Part shown: in pieces, positions 2,879 through 21,442 of the stretch
Numbering within the stretch: position 1 is the first letter of the stretch
How the letters are laid out: each line of letters begins with the position of its first letter
Virus record (IMG/VR): IMGVR_UViG_3300025102_000292
Location: 1 to 23,865 of that record
Origin: a virus
Length of the DNA: 23,865 nt
Strand: one strand, 5' to 3'
Notes under the pieces: model-generated
Seen by the model: only the letters and a program-made list of their open reading frames with translations
Database searches by the model: none
What the model was told of the DNA's origin: nothing
Translations under genes and position numbers: made by a program

Positions 2879-3101
2879 GTTTCAAAAAATTGCTAATGTT
2901 TTGAGTATTGTCTCATTCATAATGGTAACTTCTGTTATTGGTGGAGGATACTTTGGATATAAATATGTAACATCAGAACAGGTAAAGGCAAAATTAATGA
3001 ATCAAATACTTGGCGAGGTAAAAGGGCTGTTACCTAATGTATTAGATAAAGGTTTACCAAAAACAACTGGCATATCTATACCAACACAACCAAAAAATTA
3101 A
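2877..3101 (+). CDS. Small membrane protein of cyanophage type, unknown function
   Basis: A 74-residue protein with an N-terminal membrane segment at about residues 5-30 (IANVLSIVSFIMVTSVIGGG), then YKYVTSEQVKAKLMNQI and a Pro-rich tail. From memory, similar short proteins occur in marine cyanophages, but no function is known to me. The start overlaps head-to-head with the minus-strand microprotein. The TAA stop is followed at once by an in-frame TTG that begins the next protein, so the two may be translationally linked. A role at the envelope is inferred from the membrane helix. Confidence 0.65.
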   Translation: MFQKIANVLSIVSFIMVTSVIGGGYFGYKYVTSEQVKAKLMNQILGEVKGLLPNVLDKGLPKTTGISIPTQPKN

Positions 3102-3728
3102 TTGGAAATACCAGAGATAAGTATTCCAGAAATACATATTCCTGAGGTTCATATACCTTATACTTTTTTACCTAACTATGAACATTCAAATGTAGAAGTT
3201 ATAGGTTGTAATTATTATCATCGAGACACAAAAAATACAGGCAATAGAAATCTATTATTAGATGATCCAAACGGAGTAAGTAGTAACTGTCCGTACCCAA
3301 GTTTTTACCCATTGAACTATGTACCAGATCAATTAATTATTGTTGAAGAGGCTGCACCAATAAATAAAGAACCTGATAAATTACCAGAAGGAAAACAACC
3401 ACAAACACAGATTCCAAAAGAAGAAAAAAAAGAAGATGACTATAAACCTTGTCCACCTAAAAATGCAGTATTTAGGCAGGGCGATTTTAAAAATGAACTT
3501 AGGCTTGAGAGACTGTTAAAATATGAACGTGATATTGATGGTTCATGTAATGCGGTCTGGGAAAAAGTACCTTTCATCGACCAATATATACCTAGTGCTT
3601 CCGTGGTTGTCTCTACTGCTCTTATTGCATCTGTGGCTGCGACTACTCCTATTATTTTAAATTTAGTAAAACCAATCGTTAAAAATTTAATTAAAAAATT
3701 ATCAAAAAAGAAAAAAAATTCTAATTAG
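3102..3728 (+). CDS. C-tail-anchored protein with IPE repeats, unknown function
   Basis: A 208-residue protein. It begins with a short repeat of Ile-Pro units (EIPEISIPEIHIPEVHIP). It has four Cys (about 36, 63, 117, 149), a Pro/Lys/Glu-rich linker (90-120), one hydrophobic helix at about 166-190, and a strongly basic tail (KKLSKKKKNSN). It contains no internal Met, so the only sensible start is the TTG at 3102, directly after and in frame with the upstream TAA; readthrough is the alternative. It ends in a shared palindrome with the minus-strand gene. The layout suggests a membrane-anchored protein with an exposed N-terminal domain. From memory, related proteins exist in cyanophages, with no known role. 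Confidence 0.65.
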   Translation: MEIPEISIPEIHIPEVHIPYTFLPNYEHSNVEVIGCNYYHRDTKNTGNRNLLLDDPNGVSSNCPYPSFYPLNYVPDQLIIVEEAAPINKEPDKLPEGKQPQTQIPKEEKKEDDYKPCPPKNAVFRQGDFKNELRLERLLKYERDIDGSCNAVWEKVPFIDQYIPSASVVVSTALIASVAATTPIILNLVKPIVKNLIKKLSKKKKNSN

Positions 3729-4299
3729 TCTCTATTTTGTGTGTATGTGGTATAACTTGATTTGGTGGTACTGTTACTTTTATCCCTTCACAAATCTGTG
3801 CGTATTTGCCTACGAAGGTCACTCCTAGGTTTGCTTGCTCTCCGCAGACCTTCAAACGAAACATTGCAAGCTCAAGCATCTGTTTCTGGTATAACAATTC
3901 TTGATTCTTTATATTTACCTCTGTAGCTTTCAAACATAAATCAGGAGCTTTACCTAAAGGAATAGTGATCTGTGCTGAAATTCCATAATTTAAGTTGTAA
4001 TTATCTTTCTCGAACCTTGGAGTTTCTTGAACGTATTTAATTTGGCCTGTATCTTCATCGTAAATGTTTTGTTTAGTGACTGTTTCTATTGGTCTATTAA
4101 ATGACCAAGCATCTGTCACATAAGGAGTAATCGTGAGACTTGGTGAACTACAAACAATTCCCTGTGACATACGAAACTGAGGTGTAGATTGAGGTGCAAT
4201 CATTGTCGCATTATTGTTTACTGTACCCTGTGCATTTGAGCTAGGACTTGCAACAGTTGTATTAGCAAAAACCCTTACAGGGCAAAGGATTACAAGAAT
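3721..4299 (-). CDS. Secreted protein of minus-strand cassette (start unresolved)
   Basis: Last gene of the minus-strand cassette. After the Sec-like hydrophobic stretch LWSVILVILCPVRVFA comes NTTVASPSSNAQGTVNNNA, then ITPYVTDAWSF, NYGISAQITIPLG, and a C-terminal helix with four conserved-looking Cys. From memory, cyanophages encode a family with the same order (a SSNAQGTV motif, ITPY, NFGISAxIxIPL, a C-terminal Cys pair). The frame is open up to 4437, but that extension lies inside the upstream gene and reads as a shadow. No ATG, GTG or TTG sits near the signal sequence. An ATT codon at 4299, overlapping the upstream TAA, is the nearest candidate. Function unknown; export to periplasm or outer membrane is inferred. 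Confidence 0.62.
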   Translation of the reverse strand: MLVILCPVRVFANTTVASPSSNAQGTVNNNATMIAPQSTPQFRMSQGIVCSSPSLTITPYVTDAWSFNRPIETVTKQNIYDEDTGQIKYVQETPRFEKDNYNLNYGISAQITIPLGKAPDLCLKATEVNIKNQELLYQKQMLELAMFRLKVCGEQANLGVTFVGKYAQICEGIKVTVPPNQVIPHTHKIETN

Positions 4300-4736: not shown

Positions 4737-5247
4737 TTTGGATTGTTACTGTAGTTGACCCCACGCAGCTTGAACCTGATCCAAATGCACCACTACAAGT
4801 ATGGACTCCTGATGATAGAGAAGTCATAGCACCTGATCCAAGAGTACCTCCACTACCTACAGTTGTTTGTCCTGATAAATGAGGTAATGTTGCTATGCCT
4901 GATGATGGAGTGATTGCAGAAGGTGTTGCATCGCCTATGTTTATAGCTTCTGTTAAAGAAAATGCAGATCCGCTAGTGGTTACACTTTTATCAGTCTGTA
5001 TTAAAGCAGGTACACCATCAGTTAAACTGCCTAAATTTAATCCACCAATTTGACCAGCAGTAGTACTGCCACCAGAAGTAACAGAGGGGGTAATATTGTT
5101 ACCTGATATTGAATAAGTCGTGCCTAATTTATTAGTCACAGAGTATGGCATATCAACAGTAATTTGTGCAGATGTCGTGAATTTTTGAGTTATATCAGCG
5201 TAGGCTGGTGCTGATAACAAAAATAGAAATGGAAGAAGTTTTTTCAT
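4729..5247 (-). CDS. Secreted protein with Sec signal peptide, cyanophage type
   Basis: A 172-residue protein with a textbook signal peptide, MKKLLPFLFLLSAPAYA, cleavage expected before DITQ. The mature part is Ser/Thr/Gly-rich and likely beta-stranded, with SAQITVDMPYSVTNKLG near the N-terminus and two Cys near the end (HTCSGAFGSGSSCVG) that could form a disulfide after export. It overlaps the preceding membrane-protein gene by four bases and the next gene by eight, so the cassette is translated as one unit. From memory, marine cyanophages carry proteins of this type. They have no known function. Confidence 0.75.
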   Translation of the reverse strand: MKKLLPFLFLLSAPAYADITQKFTTSAQITVDMPYSVTNKLGTTYSISGNNITPSVTSGGSTTAGQIGGLNLGSLTDGVPALIQTDKSVTTSGSAFSLTEAINIGDATPSAITPSSGIATLPHLSGQTTVGSGGTLGSGAMTSLSSGVHTCSGAFGSGSSCVGSTTVTIQID

Positions 5248-5687
5248 GTGTCTAATTTTCCGTTGTTCTTTACGTTTTTTCCAGTAATCGGATCGACTCT
5301 GATTACATCAGGTTTACTTGTAATTAATTCTATCGGTTGCCTTATTACTATAGTTTGTACACCACCATTGGTGTTACCAATATTACCGTTCTCTCCTTCT
5401 TTCTTTTTCTTTTTTGCACCTGTAGCAGCACCAACAGAAACACCCCAACCAGCAAGAATATTTCCTAATAAACCTGCGGCAAAAGTGCTGTCTACTCTAG
5501 GCTGGTCTGGAATATCAAGACCAAATAATCTATTAGGTAGCTTTATATATCCAAGAGACAGAACTATTAAACACCAAGCAAGGATAGCTCCTTGTGCAGT
5601 AGTGCTTACTAAGAACATTATCTTTTCTTGATAGTCAGGTTTATCATCATCTAATTGCTTTTTATTTTCGATTGTCTTATCTGCCAT
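5244..5687 (-). CDS. Membrane protein heading the minus-strand cassette
   Basis: A 147-residue protein with two hydrophobic segments: about 23-50 (IMFLVSTTAQGAILAWCLIV) and about 68-92 (TFAAGLLGNILAGWGVSVGA). A Lys-rich stretch (KKKKKEGENG) and a polar C-terminal domain ending in PITGKNVKNNGKLDT follow. The N-terminus is charged and cytoplasmic by the positive-inside rule. It is the first gene of a four-gene minus-strand unit and overlaps the secreted-protein gene by four bases. A small pore, holin-like protein or membrane anchor for the secreted partners are all possible. The plus-strand frame over the same bases is a shadow. Confidence 0.68.
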   Translation of the reverse strand: MADKTIENKKQLDDDKPDYQEKIMFLVSTTAQGAILAWCLIVLSLGYIKLPNRLFGLDIPDQPRVDSTFAAGLLGNILAGWGVSVGAATGAKKKKKEGENGNIGNTNGGVQTIVIRQPIELITSKPDVIRVDPITGKNVKNNGKLDT

Positions 5688-6645: not shown

Positions 6646-8367
6646 TTGCAACCTTTACCTAAAAAATTACAAGACTTTAGATATTTCTTAATTGTTACTT
6701 GGAGACATCTAAACCTACCAGACCCTACTCCTGTTCAGTTAGATATAGCTGAGTATCTACAATATGGTGCTAGACGTAAGATCATTCAAGGATTTCGTGG
6801 TGTAGGTAAGAGTTGGATTACTTCTACTTACGTTGTGTGGCGACTTCGTATGAACCCACAACTAAAATTCTTAGTGGTATCTGCCAGTAAAGACAGAGCC
6901 GATAACTTTACGACCTTTACCATGCGTCTTATAAACGAGATGCCTATACTTGCTGGATTGATCCCTAGTGACGACCAGAGAAACAGTAAAGTAAGTTTTG
7001 ATGTAAGACCAGCACAAGCTGACCATGCCCCCTCATGCTCTTCTAGAGGGGTCTTAGGGCAGATGTCAGGAGCTAGGGCAGACGAAGTAATTGCAGATGA
7101 CGTAGAAGTTCCTAATAATTCTTTCACTCAACCCATGAGAGACAAACTTAGTGAAGCTGTAAAAGAATTTGAAGCGATCTTAAAACCTAATGGAAAGATT
7201 ACCTTCCTAGGTACACCACAGGTAGAAAATTCTGTGTACCTAACACTAGAAGAAAGAGGATATGAAACACGAATATGGACTGCACGTTACCCACAGCTAA
7301 AAAACAACTACGGAGATAGACTTGCACCTATTATTCTTAGAAAACTTACAGAAGGACTTGTAAAGCCTAAAGACCCTGTAGATCCTATAAGGTTCTCTGC
7401 TGAAGATCTTATGGAAAGAGAAGCTTCCTATGGTCGTAGTGGCTTTAACCTGCAATTCCAGCTTGATACGACCCTATCTGACCAAGATCGTTACCCATTA
7501 AAAATAAATGACCTTGTGATAATGCCAATAAACAAAGAATTTGCTCCCGAAAAAGTAATATGGTCTAACTCTCCCGAATATGTAATCACGGATCTGCAAT
7601 GTGTAGGCTTCAATGGCGACAGGTTCTATCGACCTGCCCAACAATTTGGAGACTTCATAGAATATACAGGCTCCGTTATGTTCGTTGACCCTTCTGGTAA
7701 AGGTAAAGACCAGACCGCTATAAGCTGTGTAAAGATGCTTAATGGTAATTTATACGTCACAGAGTGTTTAGGACTCTCTGGGGGCTATTCTGACGCTGTT
7801 CTAGAGAAGATTAGTAAGATTGCTAGAGATAATCAAATCAATACTATCCTCGTAGAACAAAACTTCGGTGGCGGTATGTTCGCTGAACTTCTAAAACCTT
7901 TCCTTATGCGGTTCCACCCATGCCAATTAGAAGACGTAAGGAACAATAAGACCAAAGAACTACGCATAATCGACACCTTAGAACCTGTAATGAACTCTCA
8001 TAGACTAATAATTGACCAGAAAGTTATAGAAAAAGACTTTCGTTCTAACCCACAAGAAACACCAGAAAGAAGATTAAAACTTCAACTTGTCTATCAACTA
8101 TCCCGACTATCAAGACATAAAGGTTCCCTAGTACATGATGACCTCGTTGACTCCCTAGCAGGTGCAGTTGCCTACTGGACTGACTACATGGCTCAGAATG
8201 AAGACCTAAACATATCTAAAAGAAAAGATGAACTACTATCCATTCACACAGATAACTGGAACTCCCTTATGAACAACACAATATCTCAATCCGCTATGGG
8301 GATGTCCATTACTCAGATAAGAAATTCTAATGTATCTACTGATGGATTCATAAGTGACGCTTATTAG
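6646..8367 (+). CDS. Terminase large subunit, packaging ATPase-nuclease (T7 gp19-like)
   Basis: A 573-residue packaging motor, close to the usual T7 gp19 length. The ATPase domain has Walker A FRGVGKSW (50-57), Walker B VIADDVEV (148-155) and a coupling motif FLGTPQ (189-194). The RNase H-like nuclease domain has its first acidic residue in FVDPSGKGKD (D350), then VEQNFGGG (E406) and LVHDDLVDSLAG (D500, D501, D504). All expected catalytic residues are present. The start is TTG at 6646, directly after the small-subunit stop and in frame with it; the next Met (residue 69) lies beyond Walker A, so a later start would destroy the ATPase. It pumps DNA into the prohead and cuts concatemers. Confidence 0.95.
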   Translation: MQPLPKKLQDFRYFLIVTWRHLNLPDPTPVQLDIAEYLQYGARRKIIQGFRGVGKSWITSTYVVWRLRMNPQLKFLVVSASKDRADNFTTFTMRLINEMPILAGLIPSDDQRNSKVSFDVRPAQADHAPSCSSRGVLGQMSGARADEVIADDVEVPNNSFTQPMRDKLSEAVKEFEAILKPNGKITFLGTPQVENSVYLTLEERGYETRIWTARYPQLKNNYGDRLAPIILRKLTEGLVKPKDPVDPIRFSAEDLMEREASYGRSGFNLQFQLDTTLSDQDRYPLKINDLVIMPINKEFAPEKVIWSNSPEYVITDLQCVGFNGDRFYRPAQQFGDFIEYTGSVMFVDPSGKGKDQTAISCVKMLNGNLYVTECLGLSGGYSDAVLEKISKIARDNQINTILVEQNFGGGMFAELLKPFLMRFHPCQLEDVRNNKTKELRIIDTLEPVMNSHRLIIDQKVIEKDFRSNPQETPERRLKLQLVYQLSRLSRHKGSLVHDDLVDSLAGAVAYWTDYMAQNEDLNISKRKDELLSIHTDNWNSLMNNTISQSAMGMSITQIRNSNVSTDGFISDAY

Positions 8368-8807: not shown

Positions 8808-8818
8808 GAACCACAATG
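8808..8818 (+). promoter_or_regulatory. GAACCACAATG leader, copy 1
   Basis: GAACCACA stands immediately before the ArdC-like ATG, without a Shine-Dalgarno sequence. The same block precedes the genes at 9873, 10315 and, in changed form, 10886 and 11905. Confidence 0.6.
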
Positions 8819-9778
8819 ACACTTTCAGCAACTAGACAATCTAAGAAACAACAGTATGACCCAAACAAAGGGTATGAAGAACTAGCTCAGTCTTTAATAG
8901 AACTAATGGAGAAAGGTGTTAATCCTTTCCGTAGGTCTTGGACTAAGGAAGCTCAACATACTAACTTTGTAACTGGGGAGCAGTACCAAAACGGAAACTT
9001 AATATGCTTAGAGATTGCCAGACTAACAAGGGGCTATAAGTCACCTTATTGGATGGGATTCGGACAAGCTAAGAAATTCGGATTAAAGATGATTAAAGGA
9101 TCTAAGGGTTCTATTATCTTGAGACCTGTAGCAATCAAGAAAGAATTACTAGACAATTCTGGTAAGCCTGTAAAAGATGCTCTAGGCAATCCCGAATTTA
9201 CAGCGTTTACTTTATTTACACCTTGTAGAGTTTTTAATCTTGACTGTTTTGAAAAGACAGGAAAGGTAGAAAACAGACTTCAAGAACTTAATAAGGATGT
9301 TGCAGTTATGCAGAATCCTATAAGTGCTAATGAAGATAAAGCAATTAAGCAATTAAGGCAGTATATGAAAACTCACAATATTGATTTTTCAGAGACAGGT
9401 AATGAAGCTTATTATTCTCCTACTTTTGACTCAATAACTGTACCTAACAGAGAAAGATTTAATTCTAACTCTTTACATTGTTCAGTTGTTGCTCATGAGT
9501 CTGTCCATTCATCAGGGGCAGATAAAAAAGGTAGGCTTTCTAGAGTTGGTATTACTAGCAAGAAAGCAACCTTTGGAAGTGAGCTATACGCAACTGAAGA
9601 ATTAATTGCAGAATTAGGAGCCTTTCTAATTTGTAATGAATTAGAGATAGATTCTAATAATGATGTTCACGCTTCATATTTAGACGGATGGATTAAGAGA
9701 TTAAGGAAAGAACCTAAGCACCTTCTAACTGTTATAGGTCATGCTGTAAAAGCTAAGAATCTAATACTAGGTTCTTAG
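8816..9778 (+). CDS. ArdC-like antirestriction protein with zincin metallopeptidase domain
   Basis: A 320-residue protein. Residues about 20-145 match the ArdC N-terminal ssDNA-binding domain (DUF1738): NPFRRSWT, then a GEQYQNGNLICLE segment and FTLFTPCRVFNLDC. Residues about 165-320 form a zincin-like metallopeptidase domain with the full HExxH motif (HESVH, 227-231) and a downstream acidic helix YATEELIAELGAF (about 258-270) that can supply the third zinc ligand. ArdC proteins of plasmids bind ssDNA and protect incoming DNA from restriction. As first gene after the genome end it occupies the position of T7 gene 0.3, also antirestriction. The catalytic motif is intact; the protease substrate is unknown. 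Confidence 0.82.
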   Translation: MTLSATRQSKKQQYDPNKGYEELAQSLIELMEKGVNPFRRSWTKEAQHTNFVTGEQYQNGNLICLEIARLTRGYKSPYWMGFGQAKKFGLKMIKGSKGSIILRPVAIKKELLDNSGKPVKDALGNPEFTAFTLFTPCRVFNLDCFEKTGKVENRLQELNKDVAVMQNPISANEDKAIKQLRQYMKTHNIDFSETGNEAYYSPTFDSITVPNRERFNSNSLHCSVVAHESVHSSGADKKGRLSRVGITSKKATFGSELYATEELIAELGAFLICNELEIDSNNDVHASYLDGWIKRLRKEPKHLLTVIGHAVKAKNLILGS

Positions 9779-11529: not shown

Positions 11530-11654
11530 ATCAATCAAAATTATACGAGTGGTTACTCGATAACGATTGCCCTTTTGAATGGGAAACAGTTGACAGTAAA
11601 ATGACTGCAACATCTTGTACTCTTGTATTTACCGATCAGGAGGATAACGATTGA
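11526..11654 (+). CDS. Small acidic hypothetical protein (42 residues)
   Basis: ATG at 11526 lies seven bases after GGGAGG and overlaps the upstream TGA. The product (MNQSKLYEWLLDNDCPFEWE, TVDSKMTATSCTLVFTDQED, ND) is acidic, with a helix then a likely beta hairpin. Its last codons contain AGGAGG (11638-11643), which serves the TTG start of the next gene. The good ribosome binding site makes this a credible gene. Function unknown. Confidence 0.58.
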   Translation: MNQSKLYEWLLDNDCPFEWETVDSKMTATSCTLVFTDQEDND

Positions 11655-11878
11655 AGTGTACTAAATGCGGAAGCCTAGAGAATCAAGTAAACAATACTAG
11701 AACTAGGCTATCTACTAGAGGTCACAACATAGACAGCAAAGCAAGTTCTATTCCTTTTACTTGGAGGAGTAGGACTTGCTTATCTTGTGGCCATAAATAT
11801 TCAACCTATGAATTAAGAACTGTTGACTATGCAACAGATGGATTTCTAAAAATGTTAGATGATCTTATTCATAACTAA
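11651..11878 (+). CDS. NrdR-like zinc-ribbon protein
   Basis: A 75-residue protein starting at TTG 11651 (overlapping the upstream TGA), seven bases after a perfect AGGAGG, which fixes the start. It carries one zinc ribbon: MKCTKCGSLEN ... WRSRTCLSCGHKYSTYE, with four Cys as two CxxC pairs. This closely resembles the N-terminal zinc ribbon of the bacterial repressor NrdR, which binds operators of ribonucleotide reductase genes. The ATP-cone domain of NrdR is absent. It may bind DNA in the host or act as an early transcription modulator. The family link is good; the target is an inference. Confidence 0.65.
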   Translation: MKCTKCGSLENQVNNTRTRLSTRGHNIDSKASSIPFTWRSRTCLSCGHKYSTYELRTVDYATDGFLKMLDDLIHN

Positions 11879-11907
11879 TAAACTTACCTATTGGAGAACC
11901 ACTAATG
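11875..11907 (+). promoter_or_regulatory. Repeated early leader, copy before integrase
   Basis: CTAATAAACTTACCTATTGG is followed by AGAACCACTAATG at the integrase start. It overlaps the stop codon of the zinc-ribbon gene. The same leader therefore marks the integrase as part of the early regulon. Confidence 0.6.
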
Positions 11908-12747
11908 AAAACTAAAGTACCGACCTTATCGGAAGCTGCAAGGCTTGTGTATAAGAGAACCTACAACGGAACAGACTCAGCACAAAACTTTTTGATAGCT
12001 ATGAAACATAACATCAAAGCTATTGGAGATCTGCCTGTAAATAAAATAACTACACCTGTAGTTAATAAGATGATGGATTATTTAAGAGATGAACTGAAGA
12101 ATAGTAAAGCGGTAATCAATACTAAACGAGGGTATCTAAAAGTAGTACTTGATAGCATGATTGATGATGGACATATCAAAGAGATCCGACTACCTAAAAG
12201 ACATAGGGTAAAGAAACAAAAGGTAGAATATTTAACTGTTGATATGGAGAGGGAACTTATTAGCTGGCTTAATTGTATGCAAAGAAATAGAGAAGCTAAA
12301 GATATTGTTGAATGTCTAATAGACTTAGGGTGTAGGGTTAATGAGTTACTTGGATTAGAAAAAAGATTTATTGATTGGGATAACAACCAGATAAATTTCA
12401 ATGAAAGAAAGAATGATAAAGCTGTAGCTGTACCTATGACTAACAGAGTGCAATCAATACTCAGGAGTTACTACAGGGAAAGCAAAGACTGTGATACTTT
12501 ATTTAGCTTGGACTATACAGAACTAAATACTATATGGCAGAAGGCTAGAAAAGATTTAGGTTATGAAAAGAAAAAGTTTTATACCTTGCACCTATGCCGA
12601 CATACTTGTGCTTCAAGATTAGTACAACGAGGAGTTCCCTTACTACTGGTAAAGGATTGGCTAGGGCATGAGGACATACAGACAACCATGATCTATGCTC
12701 ACCTACAACCTAAAGCATTACATAGTGTGGTGGAGGTGTTGAACTGA
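11905..12747 (+). CDS. int: Tyrosine recombinase/integrase
   Basis: A 280-residue site-specific recombinase. The N-terminal part (about 10-100) is a SAM-like core-binding domain. The catalytic domain has the full residue set: Arg144 (LGCRVNELLGL), Lys172 (NDKAVAVPM), His229 and Arg232 (LHLCRHTCASRL), His255 (LGHEDIQTT) and Tyr264 (MIYAHL). It should therefore be active. Cyanopodoviruses often carry such an integrase just before the RNA polymerase gene, as here, though stable lysogeny is rarely seen in them. No arm domain, excisionase, repressor or clear tRNA-derived attachment site is visible nearby. It overlaps the next gene by one base. Confidence 0.92.
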   Translation: MKTKVPTLSEAARLVYKRTYNGTDSAQNFLIAMKHNIKAIGDLPVNKITTPVVNKMMDYLRDELKNSKAVINTKRGYLKVVLDSMIDDGHIKEIRLPKRHRVKKQKVEYLTVDMERELISWLNCMQRNREAKDIVECLIDLGCRVNELLGLEKRFIDWDNNQINFNERKNDKAVAVPMTNRVQSILRSYYRESKDCDTLFSLDYTELNTIWQKARKDLGYEKKKFYTLHLCRHTCASRLVQRGVPLLLVKDWLGHEDIQTTMIYAHLQPKALHSVVEVLN

Positions 12748-12989
12748 TGGAAGTAACAATAGAATTTATGGAAGCTGGTTTCTTTTTTAATAAAGATAGC
12801 GGTATGCACCCAGAGAAACCTTTAGTAAATGTTGTTTGGGTTAAAGATGACAAGACTTATGGTTCTATATCTACAATCGAAGGTCTTTTTTATCCTAATC
12901 TTTGCCCTGAGCTTGTAACTGTACCTGAGAATGTAAGGCTTGAGGTAATTAGAAAGTATGAAGATGAACTTAAGCCTTACTTACAATGA
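12747..12989 (+). CDS. Hypothetical protein between integrase and RNA polymerase
   Basis: An 80-residue acidic protein beginning MEVTIEFMEAGFFFNKDSGM. It has a likely beta-sheet first half (NVVWVKDDKTYGSIS) and a helical C-terminus (VPENVRLEVIRKYEDELKPY). No family is recognised. It overlaps the integrase stop by one base and the RNA polymerase start by four bases, so all three are translated together. It could modulate either neighbour, but that rests on position only. Confidence 0.6.
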   Translation: MEVTIEFMEAGFFFNKDSGMHPEKPLVNVVWVKDDKTYGSISTIEGLFYPNLCPELVTVPENVRLEVIRKYEDELKPYLQ

Positions 12990-15382
12990 CTGAACCAAGT
13001 AAGAAACAACTAGAGCTAGAGCAAAGTATCTGTAGTATCTCAGCCTATAACAAGATCAGTAAACAAAACAGAAACATTGAGAAGGGCAGGGAGTCAGAGA
13101 ATTACTATGCTCGCAACATGATTGAAGCTGGTCTTGAACAACTGACTAAGGAACTAGAGAAACATATCTTTGAATCTTTATCTGGCAAGGTAGGAGTCAA
13201 GGCTATATCTGCCTTATTCCTATCTCAGTTCCCTGATCTAGATGTAGTATCTTTTATTGCTTTTAAAGTAATAATAGATAGCACTTCACAATCTAAAACC
13301 ACGACATCAACTGCACTAAAGATAGGGCAAATGTTAGAGGATGAACTGAGGTTTACTAAGTTCGAGGAGGTAGATCCGAAACACTTTAAAAATATTATTA
13401 AACATACAAGTGATACAAGGCACGAAAGATATAAAAGAAATCTCATGGTCTATCACATGAACCAGAAGGGGCATGAGTTTGAGACTTGGACTAGAGCTAA
13501 TAAACTTAGGGTTGGGCTAAAACTTATTGAGTTAACCATGACAAAGATAGGCATGGTCAAGATAATAAATAAAAGGATTAAGAATACTACAGTCTCACAT
13601 ATTATTTTTACTGAAGTCTTTATGGAGTACATAAGGAAAGGAAGATCTAATCGTATCGCTGCTTACCCACTACTACAACCATGCTTCGATATGCCTAGAC
13701 CTTGGACTTCTATTAATGATGGTGGTTACTACACCGAGAGACTACAGACTAGAGCAATCAAGACGACTGATCGAGATTCGATAAAGAGATTACAAGAAGA
13801 AAACTTATCAACAAGTCTGAAAGCGTTAACTCTGGCGAGTCAAACTGCTTGGACTGTAAACAAATTTGTGCTTGAAATTCTTGTGTATTGTTGGGAAGAA
13901 AGAATAGAAGTAGGTTCATTGATTGATAGAGAACTAGCTGAACTGCCTACGAAACCACTTGATATAGATACCAATAAGGAAGCTCGAAAGGAATGGAGAT
14001 ACTTAGCTTCTCTTATACATGATATGAACGCACACAATAAAAGCAAACGCTATCAAATACTTTCAATGATAGATACCGCACAAAAATATTCTGATGAAAA
14101 GTTCTTTCATGTATATCAATTTGATTGGACAGGTAGGATGTACCCTGTTACTGCACACTTTCACCCACAAGGTAATGATGTAGCTAGAGGACTACATATA
14201 TTTCATAAGGGTGCTGCTATCAATAACAAAAAACAACTGAACTGGTTAGCCATAGCTGGTGCTAATCATTGGGGTCTTAATAAAGAATCCTATGAAGATA
14301 GATTGGAGTGGGCTTACATTGCTGGTACTGATTTAGCTCTACAAATATATGATGATCCTATTGCTCATGTAGCTTTATGGGGTAAAGCAAAAGAACCTTG
14401 GCAGTTTCTTGGGTGGTGTAGAGAGTGGGCAGAGTTTCAAAGAGATGGGTGGGGTTATGTATCTCATCATTGCTGCTGCCTTGATGGTACTAACAATGGC
14501 TATCAACATATAGCAGGTCTTACAGGCAACCAACATCTAGCTAATAAAGTTAACTTGCAGAATGTAAATCAACCGCAAGATTTATATAAACAAATCCTTG
14601 ATGTATTACTAGAAGAATTAGAGAAGGATGATAAACCAGAAGCTAAAGAGTGGCTTGCAATTAAAGATAAGTTAACTAGAAAATTTATAAAGAAACCTGT
14701 GCTTATGATTCCTTACAACTCAACAACATTCGGCATAGCTAATTACATAGAAAGATATTTTGTAAACGAAAACATTTCAATGGCAAAAAATTTTCGTAAT
14801 AACTTTTACTTGGCACATTTGATTGAACATTCTGTAAAGTCTGTAACCCCTGAGAGTCCCTTGCTTTTGAAACACTTAGCTACTATTGCTCGCTGCTTTA
14901 ATAAAGAGAACAAACCTATACGTTGGCATAGCCCATCAGGTTTTCTTATCGAACAAAACTATTATGTGAATCAAAGTAAAAGAGTTAAGAGTAAGATAAG
15001 TAACTCAACTATATATTTAAACCTAGCTGAAACAGATAAGACTAAGGTAGATAAAAGAAAACAACACCAAGGTTTTCCTAGTAATTATATACATAGTCTT
15101 GATGCTGCTCATTGCCATTTAAGTTTGGTTGCTGCCAGTAAGAAAGGACTAAATCAATTCTGTATTATCCACGATTGCTATGGGAGTCCAGCTAGTGAAT
15201 TAGAATCTTTAATCCAATGTGTTAAGCAAAGTTTCTATGATATTTATAGTGATAATAATTTAGATAATCTATACCATCAGGCAGTACAACAACTGAGTGA
15301 GACAAAGGATTTACCCAAGGCACTACGCATGGGGGATTTTAATATTACTGATGTGTTAAATGCACCATATATATTTACTTAA
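12986..15382 (+). CDS. T7-type single-subunit DNA-directed RNA polymerase
   Basis: A 798-residue polymerase (T7: 883). The DxxGR element is DWTGRMYPV (380-388). The catalytic Asp of motif A is D500 (CCCLDGTNNGYQH) and that of motif C is D730 (IIHDCYGSPA). The O-helix motif reads R565, K569 and Y577 (RKFIKKPVLMIPYNSTTFG), with T7 spacing. A late His703 lies in YIHSLDAAH. The Gly that follows the Tyr in T7 (G640) is Asn578 here. It transcribes the phage middle and late genes, and phages of this type need it for DNA movement into the cell. The start ATG overlaps the upstream stop. Confidence 0.96.
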   Translation: MTEPSKKQLELEQSICSISAYNKISKQNRNIEKGRESENYYARNMIEAGLEQLTKELEKHIFESLSGKVGVKAISALFLSQFPDLDVVSFIAFKVIIDSTSQSKTTTSTALKIGQMLEDELRFTKFEEVDPKHFKNIIKHTSDTRHERYKRNLMVYHMNQKGHEFETWTRANKLRVGLKLIELTMTKIGMVKIINKRIKNTTVSHIIFTEVFMEYIRKGRSNRIAAYPLLQPCFDMPRPWTSINDGGYYTERLQTRAIKTTDRDSIKRLQEENLSTSLKALTLASQTAWTVNKFVLEILVYCWEERIEVGSLIDRELAELPTKPLDIDTNKEARKEWRYLASLIHDMNAHNKSKRYQILSMIDTAQKYSDEKFFHVYQFDWTGRMYPVTAHFHPQGNDVARGLHIFHKGAAINNKKQLNWLAIAGANHWGLNKESYEDRLEWAYIAGTDLALQIYDDPIAHVALWGKAKEPWQFLGWCREWAEFQRDGWGYVSHHCCCLDGTNNGYQHIAGLTGNQHLANKVNLQNVNQPQDLYKQILDVLLEELEKDDKPEAKEWLAIKDKLTRKFIKKPVLMIPYNSTTFGIANYIERYFVNENISMAKNFRNNFYLAHLIEHSVKSVTPESPLLLKHLATIARCFNKENKPIRWHSPSGFLIEQNYYVNQSKRVKSKISNSTIYLNLAETDKTKVDKRKQHQGFPSNYIHSLDAAHCHLSLVAASKKGLNQFCIIHDCYGSPASELESLIQCVKQSFYDIYSDNNLDNLYHQAVQQLSETKDLPKALRMGDFNITDVLNAPYIFT

Positions 15383-15452: not shown

Positions 15453-16112
15453 ATGGACAACATTAAATCGGAGAGTATTAAGTTAGTCACTCCAGTAGGA
15501 ACTCGCTTTCGTTACTCTTATCTAGTAACACCTGATGAGTACATGGGTGAACAGAAGTGGAAGACTGAAGCATTGATACCAGTAGGTTCAATGATGAAAA
15601 ACAAAGAAGGCAAGATGGTAGAAGCTACTGCTTATATCATTGGAGAACTAGAAGGATTACTAGAGATATGGAAGGGTCAACTGAAAGCTGCTTTTCCTGA
15701 TAGATCTTTTAGTTTAACTAAGAGTTCAAAGACAGGACAACCATCTTTCCCTTGGTCATTCGAGGAGAGTGATTTAGTTATCAGACTAAAGAAAAATTAT
15801 AAAGGCATGAAGGGTATCAATACACCTGTTGCTTTCTATAAGACTGAAGAACAAAGTGGTCAAGTAGTTCTTATGAATGAGGATGAAAGATTACAGATGG
15901 AGAAGATAAGTCCAGAGACAGAAGGACAAGTATCTTTCTTAGCTTCTGGATATAACGCAGGTGGTAATGGTGTAGGTATTAGATGTATGCCATTAAGTAT
16001 TTGCTTTAGAAATATAGTTCCCTTTACAGGTGGAGGTGGAGCAAGTGACTTCGAGACAGCAGAACCAACGACCTACGAAGAGAAAGCGACTGCCACAGCA
16101 GCCGACTTCTAA
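15453..16112 (+). CDS. Single-stranded DNA-binding protein (T7 gp2.5-like)
   Basis: A 219-residue protein in the gp2.5 position, after RNA polymerase and before endonuclease (T7 gp2.5: 232). It opens with an OB-fold pattern (VTPVGTRFRYSYLVTPDEYM) and ends with an acidic, low-complexity tail whose last residues are AADF. The terminal Phe on an acidic tail is the hallmark of gp2.5, where it contacts DNA polymerase and helicase. Its presence is notable because no polymerase gene is seen here. AAGG in the leader (near 15443) can serve as ribosome binding site. Its 3' end overlaps the endonuclease gene by about 80 bases. Confidence 0.82.
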   Translation: MDNIKSESIKLVTPVGTRFRYSYLVTPDEYMGEQKWKTEALIPVGSMMKNKEGKMVEATAYIIGELEGLLEIWKGQLKAAFPDRSFSLTKSSKTGQPSFPWSFEESDLVIRLKKNYKGMKGINTPVAFYKTEEQSGQVVLMNEDERLQMEKISPETEGQVSFLASGYNAGGNGVGIRCMPLSICFRNIVPFTGGGGASDFETAEPTTYEEKATATAADF

Positions 16113-16470
16113 ATACAAAAGCAAGTTTGAAGCTGCTTTTGCCGACAGTTTACACAAAAAGAAAATAAAATTTACTTATGAAACTATCAGCATTGACTAC
16201 ACAATTAGCTACAGCTACAAGCCTGACTTTATCCTCAACAATTTTATTGTTGAAACGAAAGGATATTTTTCGACTGAAGACCGCAGAAAGCATCTTGTTA
16301 TTAAGGAGACAAGACCCGAACTAGACATCAGGTTTTGTTTTCAAAATAGCAAGACACGATTAAGCAAAGCAAAGAGAAGCCTTACCTATGGTGCATGGTG
16401 CGATAGGCATGGGTTTCTCTACTGCGATAAAACAATTCCTTCTGAATGGTATGACTTACCCACAACCTGA
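16030..16470 (+). CDS. Endonuclease I, Holliday-junction resolvase (T7 gp3-like)
   Basis: A 146-residue protein (T7 gp3: 149) aligned over its length with T7 gp3: KIKFTYE, YKPDFIL, IVETKGYF, RRKHLVIKETRPELDIR. The catalytic set is conserved: Glu34, Asp66, Glu75, Lys77 (T7 E20, D55, E65, K67). It cuts branched DNA and helps digest host DNA to nucleotides. There is no ATG; the start must be one of three GTG codons (16030, 16036, 16045), all deep inside the SSB gene in another frame. The basic N-terminal stretch (TKRKRLPQQPTSKYK) is shared by any of these starts. Confidence 0.92.
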   Translation: MEVEQVTSRQQNQRPTKRKRLPQQPTSKYKSKFEAAFADSLHKKKIKFTYETISIDYTISYSYKPDFILNNFIVETKGYFSTEDRRKHLVIKETRPELDIRFCFQNSKTRLSKAKRSLTYGAWCDRHGFLYCDKTIPSEWYDLPTT

Positions 16471-16603
16471 TAACCCTAAAGCAGGTGATACTTTTTTTGA
16501 CCCAGTTAATAAAATGTGGAGAGTTTTCAATGGCATGACTTGGGTTGAAGTTAATTTACAAGAACACAAATGTAACTTAGATGAAGAGTCAATACAAGAA
16601 TAA
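16451..16603 (+). CDS. Small hypothetical protein between endonuclease and primase
   Basis: The most likely start is ATG at 16451 (MTYPQPDNPKAGDTFFDPVN), giving 50 residues; the frame is open to another ATG at 16388. The core GDTFFDPVNKMWRVFNGMTW resembles short phage peptides of tail or adaptor type (D-x-x-NKxWRVFNGxxWxEV), but I cannot assign a role. It overlaps the endonuclease end by 20 bases and the primase start by 23 bases. Confidence 0.55.
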   Translation: MTYPQPDNPKAGDTFFDPVNKMWRVFNGMTWVEVNLQEHKCNLDEESIQE

Positions 16604-18194
16604 AAAGATTTGCCCTGAGTGTGGCAAAAAAAACTGTGCAGTCTTTGATGATGGGCATGAACATTGCTTCACTATGGATTGCGAATACACGTACTACCCC
16701 AACCAAGACAAAGAAAAGAAAGTGAGTAACATCATTCCATTAAAGAAAACAAATCCAAAACTATTAAAGGTAACACCTATACCTTTAGTTAAACGTGGAA
16801 TCACCAAAGAGACTTGCGAACTATTTGGTTATGGACAGGCAGAATATAGAGGACAGCCTGTTCAAGTTGCTACTTATAAAGACCAACAAGGTAGAGATGT
16901 AGCACAACACGTACGATTTCAAGACAAGAAGTTTGTTTGGATAGGAGACATATCTAACGTACAACTATGGGGTCAACACTTATGGCGACAACATGGCAGC
17001 AATGGATCTGTATTCGTAAGCTGCTTTGAAGGTGAGATTGATTGCATGAGTGGATCTCAAATACAAGGCAACAAGTTTCCTTGTGTATCAATACCATCAG
17101 GGGTGCAGTCAGCAGCTAAGTATTTGGCAGCCAACTACAAATGGTTAGATACTTATTGTCGTATAGTTCTTTGCTTTGATAACGATGATGCAGGGAATAA
17201 AGCAGCAGAGAAGTGTATGGAAATTTTACCCAAAGGTAAGGTTGCAATAGCAAGACTAGATCGTAATGATGTTAACGATCATCTTGTACAAGGTGAAGGA
17301 GATTTAGTACAAGAAAGATTATGGAAAGCTAGACCAGTAAGACCTGATTGTTTGATCAATGCTGCTGATGCTTGGGATTTATTTACTAAAGAAACAAGTA
17401 AAGCTGTAACAGATTTTCCTTTTCCTAAACTAAATGATTTTACAAAAGGATTATTTCCTAGCCAATTATTTACAGTAGCTTCCGCAAGTGGGGCAGGTAA
17501 GTCCACAATCTGTAGAGAATTTTGCCATCACTTTTTGAAGAGAGGATTAAAGGTTGGTTATATAGGACTAGAAGAATCAGTACAAAGAACACTTCAAGGT
17601 TTGGTAGGCATTGACTTGAATGTTCCTTTACATCTAACTGAAGATGGTATAGATGAAGCGAGCTTAAAGACTGCCTTTGATAAACTTACTTCAAGTCGTA
17701 ATTTGTTTTTATACAATCACTTCGGTAGTCTTGAACCTGATGTATTGCTTGAACAGATCAGATACTTAGCAACAGTTGATGGAGTGCAGGTAGTAATTCT
17801 TGACCACATCAGTATAGTTTTATCTGGTCTTGAGTTAGACAATGAACGCAAAGCAATAGATATTATAATGACCAAGCTAAGAAGTTTATGTGAAGCCACA
17901 GGTATAGCTCTTGTATTGGTCAGTCACTTACGCAGACCACAAGGACAATCACATGAGTCAGGCAGGGAGGTTGATACCTCAGACTTGAGGGGATCTCATT
18001 CACTACTTCAACTATCAGATGTCGTACTCTCGGCTTCTAGAAACCAGACAGGAAATGCTAGTGAGAGACAGCGATTACAGCTAAAGGTACTCAAGTCTAG
18101 ACATACAGGGATGACAGGAGAAGTAGATAAATTATTATACGACCAAAAGACAGGTCGATTAATTGTATATGAAAATGATTTTGCTGAACTATGA
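16581..18194 (+). CDS. DNA primase-helicase (T7 gp4-like)
   Basis: A 537-residue bifunctional protein (T7 gp4: 566). The N-terminal zinc ribbon has Cys11, Cys14, Cys29 and Cys34. The TOPRIM primase core has CFEGEIDCMSG (Glu150) and CFDNDDAG (Asp200, Asp202). The RecA-like DnaB-type helicase has Walker A ASGAGKST (302-309), Walker B VQVVILDHIS, and motif LVLVSHLRRP. It unwinds the fork and makes primers. The C-terminus ends YENDFAEL, without the acidic tail and terminal Phe by which T7 gp4 binds DNA polymerase. It overlaps the exonuclease gene by four bases. Confidence 0.95.
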   Translation: MKSQYKNKKICPECGKKNCAVFDDGHEHCFTMDCEYTYYPNQDKEKKVSNIIPLKKTNPKLLKVTPIPLVKRGITKETCELFGYGQAEYRGQPVQVATYKDQQGRDVAQHVRFQDKKFVWIGDISNVQLWGQHLWRQHGSNGSVFVSCFEGEIDCMSGSQIQGNKFPCVSIPSGVQSAAKYLAANYKWLDTYCRIVLCFDNDDAGNKAAEKCMEILPKGKVAIARLDRNDVNDHLVQGEGDLVQERLWKARPVRPDCLINAADAWDLFTKETSKAVTDFPFPKLNDFTKGLFPSQLFTVASASGAGKSTICREFCHHFLKRGLKVGYIGLEESVQRTLQGLVGIDLNVPLHLTEDGIDEASLKTAFDKLTSSRNLFLYNHFGSLEPDVLLEQIRYLATVDGVQVVILDHISIVLSGLELDNERKAIDIIMTKLRSLCEATGIALVLVSHLRRPQGQSHESGREVDTSDLRGSHSLLQLSDVVLSASRNQTGNASERQRLQLKVLKSRHTGMTGEVDKLLYDQKTGRLIVYENDFAEL

Positions 18195-18925
18195 CTTTAT
18201 TAATTGATGCTGATTGGCTAGTTTATTCTTCTTGTTGTGCTTGTGAAATAGATACAAGATGGAATGAATGGCAACATACTCTTCACTCTGATGAAAGAGA
18301 TATAATGAACCTGATTGAAAGCAGGTTAGAAGTATATAAACAGATAGCAGAAGACAAGCATGATGTGGTTATGTGCTTTACTTCTTACCCTACATTTCGA
18401 CATGAGATATTTCCTGAGTACAAAATGAATAGGATAGGTAAACGAAAACCATTAGCACTAAAAAGTATTATTAAAAAAATTAAGAATGAATATGAATCTG
18501 CTGCCTATCCAAACCTAGAAGGAGATGATGTTCTTGGATTGTTGGCTACCAATGGTCAGTATAAAAATCCAATCATAGTCTCAGTAGATAAAGACATGAA
18601 GACTATACCTTGTAAGTTAATACAAGAAGATGAGATCTTACATATAACAGAGAAGAAAGCAGATAGGCATTGGTTTGAGATGTCACTAGCTGGTGACTCT
18701 GGTGATGGTATCGCAGGTCTTAAAGGTATGGGTATGGTTACTGCTTCCAAGACACTAGCCAATACTCCAGATACTAGAGATGCACTTTGGTCTAAGGTAC
18801 AGGAGACATATACAAAGAAAGGTTATAGTATTGCTGATGCTATTCTCAATGTAAGACTTACAAGAATACTAAGAGAAGGAGATTATAACTACAGCACAGG
18901 TGAAGTAAAACTTTGGCAGCCATAA
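18191..18925 (+). CDS. 5'-3' exonuclease (T7 gp6-like, FEN family)
   Basis: A 244-residue nuclease of the flap/5'-exonuclease family. Acidic metal-binding clusters: LLIDADWLVY (D6, D8), NLEGDDVLG (E110, D112, D113), VSVDKDMK (D133, D135) and AGDSGDGIAGLKGMG (D169, D172, with the following helix-hairpin-helix). T7 gp6 removes primers and degrades host DNA. In T7 the polymerase gene lies between helicase and exonuclease; here the two overlap by four bases (ATGA). The strong terminator starting at 18925 ends the replication operon. Confidence 0.92.
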   Translation: MTLLIDADWLVYSSCCACEIDTRWNEWQHTLHSDERDIMNLIESRLEVYKQIAEDKHDVVMCFTSYPTFRHEIFPEYKMNRIGKRKPLALKSIIKKIKNEYESAAYPNLEGDDVLGLLATNGQYKNPIIVSVDKDMKTIPCKLIQEDEILHITEKKADRHWFEMSLAGDSGDGIAGLKGMGMVTASKTLANTPDTRDALWSKVQETYTKKGYSIADAILNVRLTRILREGDYNYSTGEVKLWQP

Positions 18926-19834: not shown

Positions 19835-21442
19835 ATGGAATACACTTCACAAGGCACAACCGCAGCAGGTAGATATGAAGCTCTTGTTAGTAGTAGATCA
19901 ACCTACGATAGAGAAGCAAAAGAATCATCAAAGCTAACGATACCTAGTTTAATACCAGAACAAACATCAGGTACTAGAGCTAGGATCAAGACACCTTTCC
20001 AAGCTACTGGTAGTCGTGGAGTTAATAGCTTATCAAATAAATTATTAATGACTTTGCTTCCACCAAGCACAGCATTTTTTAAATTAGAAATAGATGATCT
20101 TGAAATAAAAAAGCAAGGACAAGAAGCACTACAAAGTGAGATAGATAAAGGACTACGCACAATAGAAAATGCTTTGATGAATCAGATAGAAATATCTAAT
20201 GATAGGGTTGCTATGTTTGAAGCACTTAAGCATTTAGTTGTATCAGGTAATGTTCTTCTTTACCTAACAGATAAAGGATTAAAAGTATATCCACTATCTA
20301 AGTTTGTTTGCAAGCGTGATGAAGTCGGTAATGTTTTAGAGATCTTAATTAAAGAGACAGTACATCCACAAGCTTTACCTCTTGAGTTCTTAGAGCAGAT
20401 TAAAAAGAAAGAGAACTATGATTCAGATATGATGAAGGGAGACTTGGATATATATACATCTATCAAAAGAATGAATGATGACTTCTTTTGGTTTCAAGAA
20501 TGTAAAGGAGAAAAGATACCTAACACAGATGGCAGATCAAAAGTAGATGTCACTCCCTTTATTCCTCTCAGGTTCATTCGGGTGGATGGTGAAGATTACG
20601 GAAGAGGATATGTTGAAGAGTATCGTGGCGACTTGATTAGTCTTGAGTCTTTAATGCAAGCAATCATTGAAGGTGCTGCTGCTTCTGCTAAAACTTTATT
20701 CTTAGTTAATCCTAATGGTATTACAAGAGCAGCCACTATAGCTAAAGCACCGAATGGTGCTATACGAGAAGGGCAAGCTTCTGATATTTCTGTGATGCAA
20801 GTAGGAAAGAGTGGAGATTTTTCTGTTGCTTTTAGTGCAATACAAAGAATAGAAGCAAGACTTGAGTTTGCTTTCTTGATGGCTAGATCAGTACAACGTG
20901 ACGCAGAAAGAGTAACAGCAGCCGAGATAAATCTTATGGCACAAGAACTAGAGAATAGTCTTGGTGGTATCTACAGTATCTTGACCCAAGAGTTTCAACT
21001 ACCATACCTCAGACGTAGGATGCACCTGTTAGTAAGACAAGGCAAAGTTCCTAAGTTACCTGATGATCTAGTCAAACCTAAGATAGTGACAGGGCTACAA
21101 GGACTTGGTAGAGGTAATGATAGAAACAAACTTATAGAGTTTATTGGAACTGTAGCTCAAGCTCTAGGACCAGATGTAATGAGACAGTACGTTAATGTGG
21201 ATGAAGCGGTCAAACGTCTTGCTACCAGTATCGGAATAGATACTGCTAACCTAGTAAAAACACAAGAGGAGATCCAAGCCGAGCAACAAGCTGCACAACA
21301 ACAACAGCTTATTCAAAGTCTTGGACCTGCTGCTTTAGGTTCACGTTTGCTTGATCCTAAAGTAAATGCTGAAGCTGGTTTAGCTGATGCACAGGCACAA
21401 CAATTACAAGGAGGACAACCTGATGCCAACCAAGAAGCCTAG
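19835..21442 (+). CDS. Portal / head-tail connector protein (T7 gp8-like)
   Basis: A 535-residue protein (T7 gp8: 536). It contains typical connector segments: GRYEALVSSRSTYDREAKES, then RGVNSLSNKLLMTLLPPSTA, FIPLRFIRVDGEDYGRGYVE and a late QRDAERVTAAEINLMAQELE. The C-terminus is Gln-rich (QAEQQAAQQQQL). Twelve copies form the channel at one capsid vertex, through which the terminase packages DNA and to which the tail binds. The order gp7.3-like, portal, scaffold, capsid is that of T7. The small next gene starts within its last 20 bases. Confidence 0.94.
   Translation: MEYTSQGTTAAGRYEALVSSRSTYDREAKESSKLTIPSLIPEQTSGTRARIKTPFQATGSRGVNSLSNKLLMTLLPPSTAFFKLEIDDLEIKKQGQEALQSEIDKGLRTIENALMNQIEISNDRVAMFEALKHLVVSGNVLLYLTDKGLKVYPLSKFVCKRDEVGNVLEILIKETVHPQALPLEFLEQIKKKENYDSDMMKGDLDIYTSIKRMNDDFFWFQECKGEKIPNTDGRSKVDVTPFIPLRFIRVDGEDYGRGYVEEYRGDLISLESLMQAIIEGAAASAKTLFLVNPNGITRAATIAKAPNGAIREGQASDISVMQVGKSGDFSVAFSAIQRIEARLEFAFLMARSVQRDAERVTAAEINLMAQELENSLGGIYSILTQEFQLPYLRRRMHLLVRQGKVPKLPDDLVKPKIVTGLQGLGRGNDRNKLIEFIGTVAQALGPDVMRQYVNVDEAVKRLATSIGIDTANLVKTQEEIQAEQQAAQQQQLIQSLGPAALGSRLLDPKVNAEAGLADAQAQQLQGGQPDANQEA

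Follow-up and report, generated by a model that had tools for sequence, protein, structure and literature searches.

A T7-like replication module without a DNA polymerase gene in an uncultivated MPP-C cyanophage

Which enzyme copies the DNA of a T7-like phage whose replication genes do not include a DNA polymerase? This question is raised by IMG/VR virus record IMGVR_UViG_3300025102_000292, which was analyzed over its whole length of 23,865 bases (hereafter the window), and in which the genes for a gp2.5-like single-stranded DNA-binding protein (SSB), endonuclease I, a 71-residue protein, a helicase-primase, and an exonuclease follow each other without a polymerase gene. We conclude that the window comes from an uncultivated MPP-C cyanophage of the P-SCSP2 branch, whose lineage lost its T7-like DNA polymerase gene. 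Note that the window starts within one open reading frame and ends within the capsid gene. Because it is therefore a fragment, the absence of a polymerase from the entire genome had to be argued through relatives.

Polymerase searches in the window and its relatives

A preliminary description of this DNA had stated that every base from the SSB gene to the exonuclease gene is accounted for and that the helicase and exonuclease genes overlap by four bases. Both statements proved accurate, as none of the 3,473 bases from 15,453 to 18,925 falls outside the five frames, and the overlap occupies positions 18,191 to 18,194. The T7-like order of helicase, DNA polymerase, and exonuclease on which that description relied is likewise confirmed by annotation in ten polymerase-bearing phages (HTVC120P, P-SSP7, T7, Syn5, P60, S-SBP1, HTVC011P, CRP-125, Pasto, and HTVC134P). 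For S-CBP1, P-SSP2, and P-RSP2, the polymerase is unnamed in the records and was detected by tblastn. The distance from helicase to exonuclease measures 2,612 nucleotides in HTVC120P and 2,214 nucleotides in P-SSP7. A six-frame search of the whole window with a family A polymerase hidden Markov model (HMM) gave no match.

The sets of relatives comprised the best 80 of 213, 27, 33, the best 80 of 131, the best 80 of at least 598, and the best 80 of 184. Among the best 80 of 213, two stop short of the exonuclease, and of the 78 loci with both genes, 77 have a junction of −4 or +2 nucleotides; the exonuclease match of L043 is out of register. Other polymerase-less loci do carry inserts at this position. 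L272 has a 232-residue open reading frame of unassigned function between helicase and exonuclease (3058–3756), and the high-GC loci L282 (6608–6829) and L286 (1495–1767) each have an NrdR-type zinc ribbon there. These three inserts were considered as polymerase remnants, but tblastn with known phage polymerases matched none of them.

The nearest isolate, P-SCSP2, has a complete genome of 37,264 bases that is annotated without a polymerase. With the PF00476 HMM, no match was obtained in 17 MPP-C records (15 uncultivated records of 24.7–38.6 kb, P-SCSP2, and P-SCSP1a), and both positive controls in the same run, HTVC120P and P-SSP7, were found. The family A model was also silent in 19 further records and in 14 additional relatives from a helicase alignment scan. 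A P-SCSP1-like helicase had served to pick seven of the 19, and a g29-like protein the remaining 12, not all of which are proven members of MPP-C. HMMs for PolB, Pol III alpha, and Prim-Pol each gave no match in 11 records; the DNA_pol_B_2 model was uninformative, as it failed to report its own control.

The part of the genome beyond the window can be judged from the nearest long relative, G001 (35,134 bases), whose helicase is 98.7% identical to that of the window and whose replication block has 93.7% nucleotide identity over 4,596 bases. Its segment corresponding to the missing part encodes the capsid, tail tubes, gp13- and gp14-like proteins, a fiber, and two large proteins (846 and 1,405 residues) in the gp15 and gp16 positions. 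The earlier expectation that the unseen part holds virion genes only is thus borne out in this relative. The possibility that a polymerase gene lies elsewhere in the complete genome found no support in the complete isolates P-SCSP2 and P-SCSP1a, an argument that again runs through relatives. Taken together, we regard it as nearly certain that the phage encodes no DNA polymerase.

Kinship with MPP-C and a single loss

A polymerase-less T7-like phage type has already been published. The accessible text of Cai et al. 2022 (PMC9860041) describes 18 isolates without an identifiable DNA polymerase, grown on Prochlorococcus MED4 and named MPP-C. It gives latent periods of 12 h for P-SCSP1a and 15 h for P-SCSP1u, compared with 6–8 h in two MPP-B phages. 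MPP-C is the clade mentioned in the preliminary description, and the window adds a new uncultivated member to it. Besides this paper, the matches listed from the open-licence literature included no further polymerase-less T7-like phages, and no later work on the MPP-C replication mechanism appeared among the matches listed. The virion structure of P-SCSP1u has been solved, according to the accessible part of PMC10575957.

The window shares 80% identity with P-SCSP2 in the helicase, 75% in the exonuclease, 73% in the RNA polymerase, and 93% across the 103 capsid residues present. In a tree of helicase plus exonuclease, the window, P-SCSP1, and P-SCSP2 cluster together and are separated from MPP-A, MPP-B, and P-RSP2 (support 100/100); when SAR11, Roseobacter, and Rhizobium phages were added, the test of whether MPP-C groups with MPP-A/B gave no decision (p-AU, approximately unbiased test, 0.151). 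The window also displays the Autographiviridae traits of a single-subunit RNA polymerase, a T7-like portal, and a T7-like terminase. The eight longest close relatives, for which completeness is not given, measure 35.1–38.6 kb, compared with 37.3–37.9 kb for MPP-C genomes. The host of the window phage is probably Prochlorococcus, judging by a helicase that is 80% identical to that of a MED4 phage.

The P-SCSP2 subgroup (OM416780) shares with the window the gene order integrase, RNA polymerase, SSB, endonuclease I, an open reading frame of 68–71 residues, helicase, exonuclease, and portal, as well as the absence of a DNA polymerase and an ArdC-like gene after the terminase. However, the ArdC-like proteins are just 32% identical, and for several small early genes of P-SCSP2, tblastn detected no counterpart in the window, which is an uncultivated fragment. 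The P-SCSP1 subgroup (OM416763 and 16 more) likewise lacks a DNA polymerase and has the same block from SSB through endonuclease and helicase to exonuclease, with a helicase 53% identical to that of the window; unlike the window, P-SCSP1a has no annotated integrase or ArdC and carries its terminase on the opposite strand. The HTVC120P pelagiphage group and MPP-A/MPP-B (P-SSP7, Syn5, and P60) resemble the window in their T7-like order from RNA polymerase through exonuclease, and HTVC120P, P-SSP7, and Syn5 also have an integrase, but in these groups a gene for a family A DNA polymerase separates the helicase from the exonuclease. Compared with the T7 replisome, the window has gp2.5-, gp3-, gp4-, and gp6-like proteins and lacks gp5.

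A helicase alignment scan (the best 80 of at least 598) added loci with helicases 52–61% identical to that of the window. We then built a helicase tree from 66 sequences of less than 85% pairwise identity, leaving out the tail columns. The 14 polymerase-less representatives are monophyletic (SH-aLRT 100), with one change of polymerase state on the tree, so that a single loss suffices. Within the clade, 11 of the 14 representatives, including the isolates, fall into a supported group (100), and L281, L282, and L286 branch outside it. Together with L283, which is 93% identical to L281, these loci (records G041–G044) have 58–61% GC, compared with 34% for P-SCSP2 and 39% for P-SCSP1a. The record of L283, G043 (39,726 bases, 57% GC), contains RNA polymerase, SSB, endonuclease I, exonuclease, and terminase genes, and no family A polymerase was detectable in it by HMM. 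The high GC content of the four loci suggests that the polymerase-less trait probably reaches hosts beyond low-GC Prochlorococcus. The polymerase-less clade thus spans more than the isolates and includes lineages of 57–61% GC, which presumably infect hosts other than Prochlorococcus.

Three observations on related loci arose from these comparisons. P-SCSP2 (L081, OM416780) carries an intact, unannotated endonuclease I gene that overlaps its SSB gene (5209–5628, + strand; PF05367, E 6.2e-37), and the encoded protein is 70% identical to that of the window. P-SCSP2 is said to have no recognizable endonuclease in the accessible text of PMC9860041; the gene was missed by both the annotation and that paper. 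Two contigs assigned to the metagenome-assembled genome (MAG) 'bacterium TMED161' (L339 and L340) are MPP-C phage contigs binned in a bacterial genome, with helicases 84 and 94% identical to that of the window. Finally, L379 is a T7-like prophage in an alphaproteobacterial MAG, in which a helicase is present and no polymerase was found in the 13.6-kb locus. Its RNA polymerase, SSB, endonuclease I, and integrase frames were named by eye, and the sole PolA match in the genome is a 1,021-residue frame on contig C30. L379 possibly represents an independent loss, or else a decayed or rearranged prophage.

The genes of the window run from fiber-related genes through terminase, an ArdC-like gene, small early genes, integrase, and RNA polymerase to the replication genes, and then from portal and scaffold to the first 103 residues of the capsid (Table 1). 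The helicase-primase contains the T7 helicase-primase N domain, Toprim, and DnaB_C. The model PF22811, which identifies an NrdR-type ribbon in a small protein upstream of the integrase, matched 14 of 23 records tested, including P-SCSP2 and eight long relatives; it had no match in P-SCSP1a, three P-SCSP1-like records, and two polymerase-bearing controls. This protein might act on the control of the host nucleotide reductase. A Pfam scan of 17 proteins from the fragmentary window identified none of psbA, hli, mazG, rnr, talC, and thyX.

Table 1. Positions of the genes discussed and the matches by which they were assigned.
Feature	Position	Strand	Match or remark
Large terminase	6646–8367	+	PF22530, E 6.3e-35; 92% identity with P-SCSP2
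ArdC-type antirestriction protein with zincin domain	8816–9778		PF08401, PF18818; after terminase
75-residue protein, NrdR-type zinc ribbon	11651–11878		PF22811, E 1.4e-8; no further family over cut-off
Tyrosine integrase	11905–12747	+	PF00589, E 8.3e-24; 77% identity with P-SCSP2 integrase
T7-type RNA polymerase	12986–15382	+	PF00940, E 1.4e-78; 73% identity with P-SCSP2
gp2.5-like SSB, C terminus TAADF	15453–16112	+	phrog_112, E 2.7e-8
Endonuclease I (gp3-like resolvase), start overlapping SSB	16030–16470	+	PF05367, E 2.8e-37; 42% identity with T7 gp3
71-residue open reading frame, function unassigned	16388–16603	+	47% match to P-SCSP2 gene 10; no Pfam match over cut-off
gp4-like helicase-primase, four-Cys N terminus, short C terminus ENDFAEL	16581–18194	+	phrog_239, E 2e-157
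gp6-like 5′-3′ exonuclease	18191–18925	+	phrog_107, E 8.9e-48
Portal protein	19835–21442	+	PF12236, E 6.6e-79; virion genes from here to window end

C-terminal tails of the helicase and SSB

The acidic, Phe-ended C terminus of the T7 helicase contacts the DNA polymerase. The preliminary description pointed out that the window helicase lacks such a tail and that the SSB keeps a terminal DF. This contrast is evident in the two proteins, which end in ENDFAEL and TAADF, respectively; the helicase tail extends 11 residues past the conserved strand, compared with 25 in T7, and has no terminal Phe. However, although the argument from the tail holds for the window, it is weaker than it seems, because 11 of 144 helicases from polymerase-bearing loci lack a terminal Phe and two of 119 from polymerase-less loci have one. 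These counts come from 263 full-length helicases of known state, in which the terminal Phe is thus present in 133 of 144 and two of 119, respectively. Among representatives the fractions are 42/52 and 2/14, and on a wider panel 31/41 and 2/26, six of its 73 loci being of unknown state and set aside. In 75 polymerase-bearing genome loci, the helicases end in Phe (57), Tyr (11), or other residues (6), and one is cut. A first count of 112/113 against 0/104, which includes duplicate phage records, had seemed to make the terminal Phe a marker for the polymerase. Given the exceptions on wider panels, the terminal Phe is a tendency and not a marker.

Median tail length past the conserved strand is 16 residues with a polymerase and 11 without among representatives (15 and 11 over all rows), and the median number of acidic tail residues is 4 and 0 (3 and 2 over all rows). 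The SSB, by comparison, ends in Phe at all 101 polymerase-bearing loci and at all 79 loci with an MPP-C-type SSB. The helicase has therefore lost or changed the element whose T7 counterpart contacts the polymerase, with the SSB end unchanged. Because a single loss is one event, the association between tail and polymerase carries no statistical weight; a tree-based test had one independent pair and no power. In addition, the L379 helicase keeps a DF end even though no polymerase was found in its 13.6-kb locus.

Among the 14 representatives of the polymerase-less clade, eight helicases have a C terminus that reads Leu-x-x-Pro-Met/Leu, followed by an aromatic residue no more than four positions later (e.g. 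RLKLPLFAL). This ending loosely resembles the consensus of beta-clamp-binding peptides but lacks the Gln. The other six representatives, which include the window, P-SCSP1a, and P-SCSP2, end differently. It is a long shot that loss of the polymerase was paired with a shift of the helicase C terminus from an acidic docking tail to a short hydrophobic tail that recruits the host replicase. A scan of the replication proteins of the window, P-SCSP2, and P-SCSP1a for clamp-binding motifs lent no support, as its matches were all loose (QVSFL and QMSFL in SSB, for example) and P-SCSP1a had none.

Candidates for the missing replicase

A host polymerase very probably replicates the phage DNA. In the proposed mechanism, the phage RNA polymerase would serve initiation, the helicase-primase would unwind and prime, the gp2.5-like SSB would coat single strands, the exonuclease would act in primer removal and recombination, and endonuclease I would resolve branches. 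A host replicase, most likely the DNA polymerase III (Pol III) holoenzyme, would extend the phage-made primers. Pol III is favored because it is processive and because well-studied polymerase-less phages rely on it, and its specific involvement seems somewhat more probable than not. With no gp5 left for the helicase to dock, loss of the acidic, Phe-ended tail would fit, and the SSB tail may have been retained because of its other roles, as the tail of T7 gp2.5 has roles besides polymerase contact. Overall, we lean toward an MPP-C phage primosome that hands its primers to host Pol III as the best explanation.

Several points weigh against this explanation. The evidence does not firmly separate Pol III from DNA polymerase I (Pol I), and the replication proteins of the window, P-SCSP2, and P-SCSP1a contain no conserved clamp-binding motif. 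By comparison with P-SCSP2, ∼13 kb of this phage genome lies outside the window, and the protein in the gp16 position (about 1,400–1,600 residues) has no confident assignment. Moreover, P-SCSP2 gave no stable one-step growth curve according to the accessible text of PMC9860041, which makes the closest isolate the least well characterized.

Three options were proposed in the accessible text of PMC9860041, namely host Pol I, host Pol III, and an unrecognized polymerase of the phage itself. Pol I, which a phage factor might modify or tether, is the first named there and is a possible, though less probable, extender of the phage primers. It is the family A enzyme of the host, and so belongs to the family of the lost gene, and the phage retains its own FEN-type exonuclease. 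However, Pol I has low processivity, and the helicase tail that docks a family A polymerase in T7 is gone, which argues mildly against coupling to an enzyme of this family. It is also described as mainly a repair enzyme (PMC9860041).

A polymerase of the phage itself that is too divergent for the profiles, such as the protein in the gp16 position, is very unlikely. Cai et al. state that a hidden polymerase is not excludable (PMC9860041), neither g29 nor g30 of P-SCSP2 could be confidently assigned to a Pfam or PHROG family, and an AlphaFold model of the first 1,100 residues of a g30 relative was unusable (pLDDT, the predicted local distance difference test, 34). Nevertheless, g29 and g30 are sited between the tail tube and fiber genes, as are gp15 and gp16, and g30 adjoins the fiber gene. 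Both are poorly conserved between P-SCSP2 and G001 (29% over 208 residues for g29 and 22% for g30), whereas the helicase (80%), exonuclease (75%), and RNA polymerase and SSB (64%) are conserved. The model of a g29 relative is mostly alpha-helical and of low confidence (mean pLDDT 55). Foldseek ranks 9jyy_G, a chain of a T7 core protein, first among its PDB matches (probability 1.00, E 1.2e-3), with a TM-score of only 0.17–0.22; the other 49 rows have probabilities of at most 0.13, and no DNA polymerase is among the 50 listed. Comparisons of the gp16-position family by hhalign yielded no match, with probabilities of 0.4% for T7 gp16, 1.2% for P-SSP7 gp16, and 0.6% for a polymerase. Lastly, an assembly or deletion artefact that dropped the gene from the window can practically be dismissed, because even though this is a single uncultivated virus record, 77 of 78 loci, as well as two sequenced isolates, have either the four-nucleotide overlap or the +2 junction.

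The T7 replisome is the textbook minimal replisome, and a natural clade that is common in surface seawater uses this primosome with the polymerase missing. MPP-C accounts for 43.5% of cyanopodovirus reads in surface waters (accessible text of PMC9860041), a group that is missed when the polymerase gene serves as the survey marker. The existence of MPP-C isolates on a laboratory strain makes the choice of host enzyme directly testable. What is new here, namely that one loss suffices for a clade broader than the isolates and that the helicase tail changed while the SSB end did not, indicates which protein surface to probe first. If the helicase tail did turn into one that recruits the host replicase, a T7 primosome would have been converted to drive bacterial Pol III, and the hosts of this clade probably range from low to high GC.

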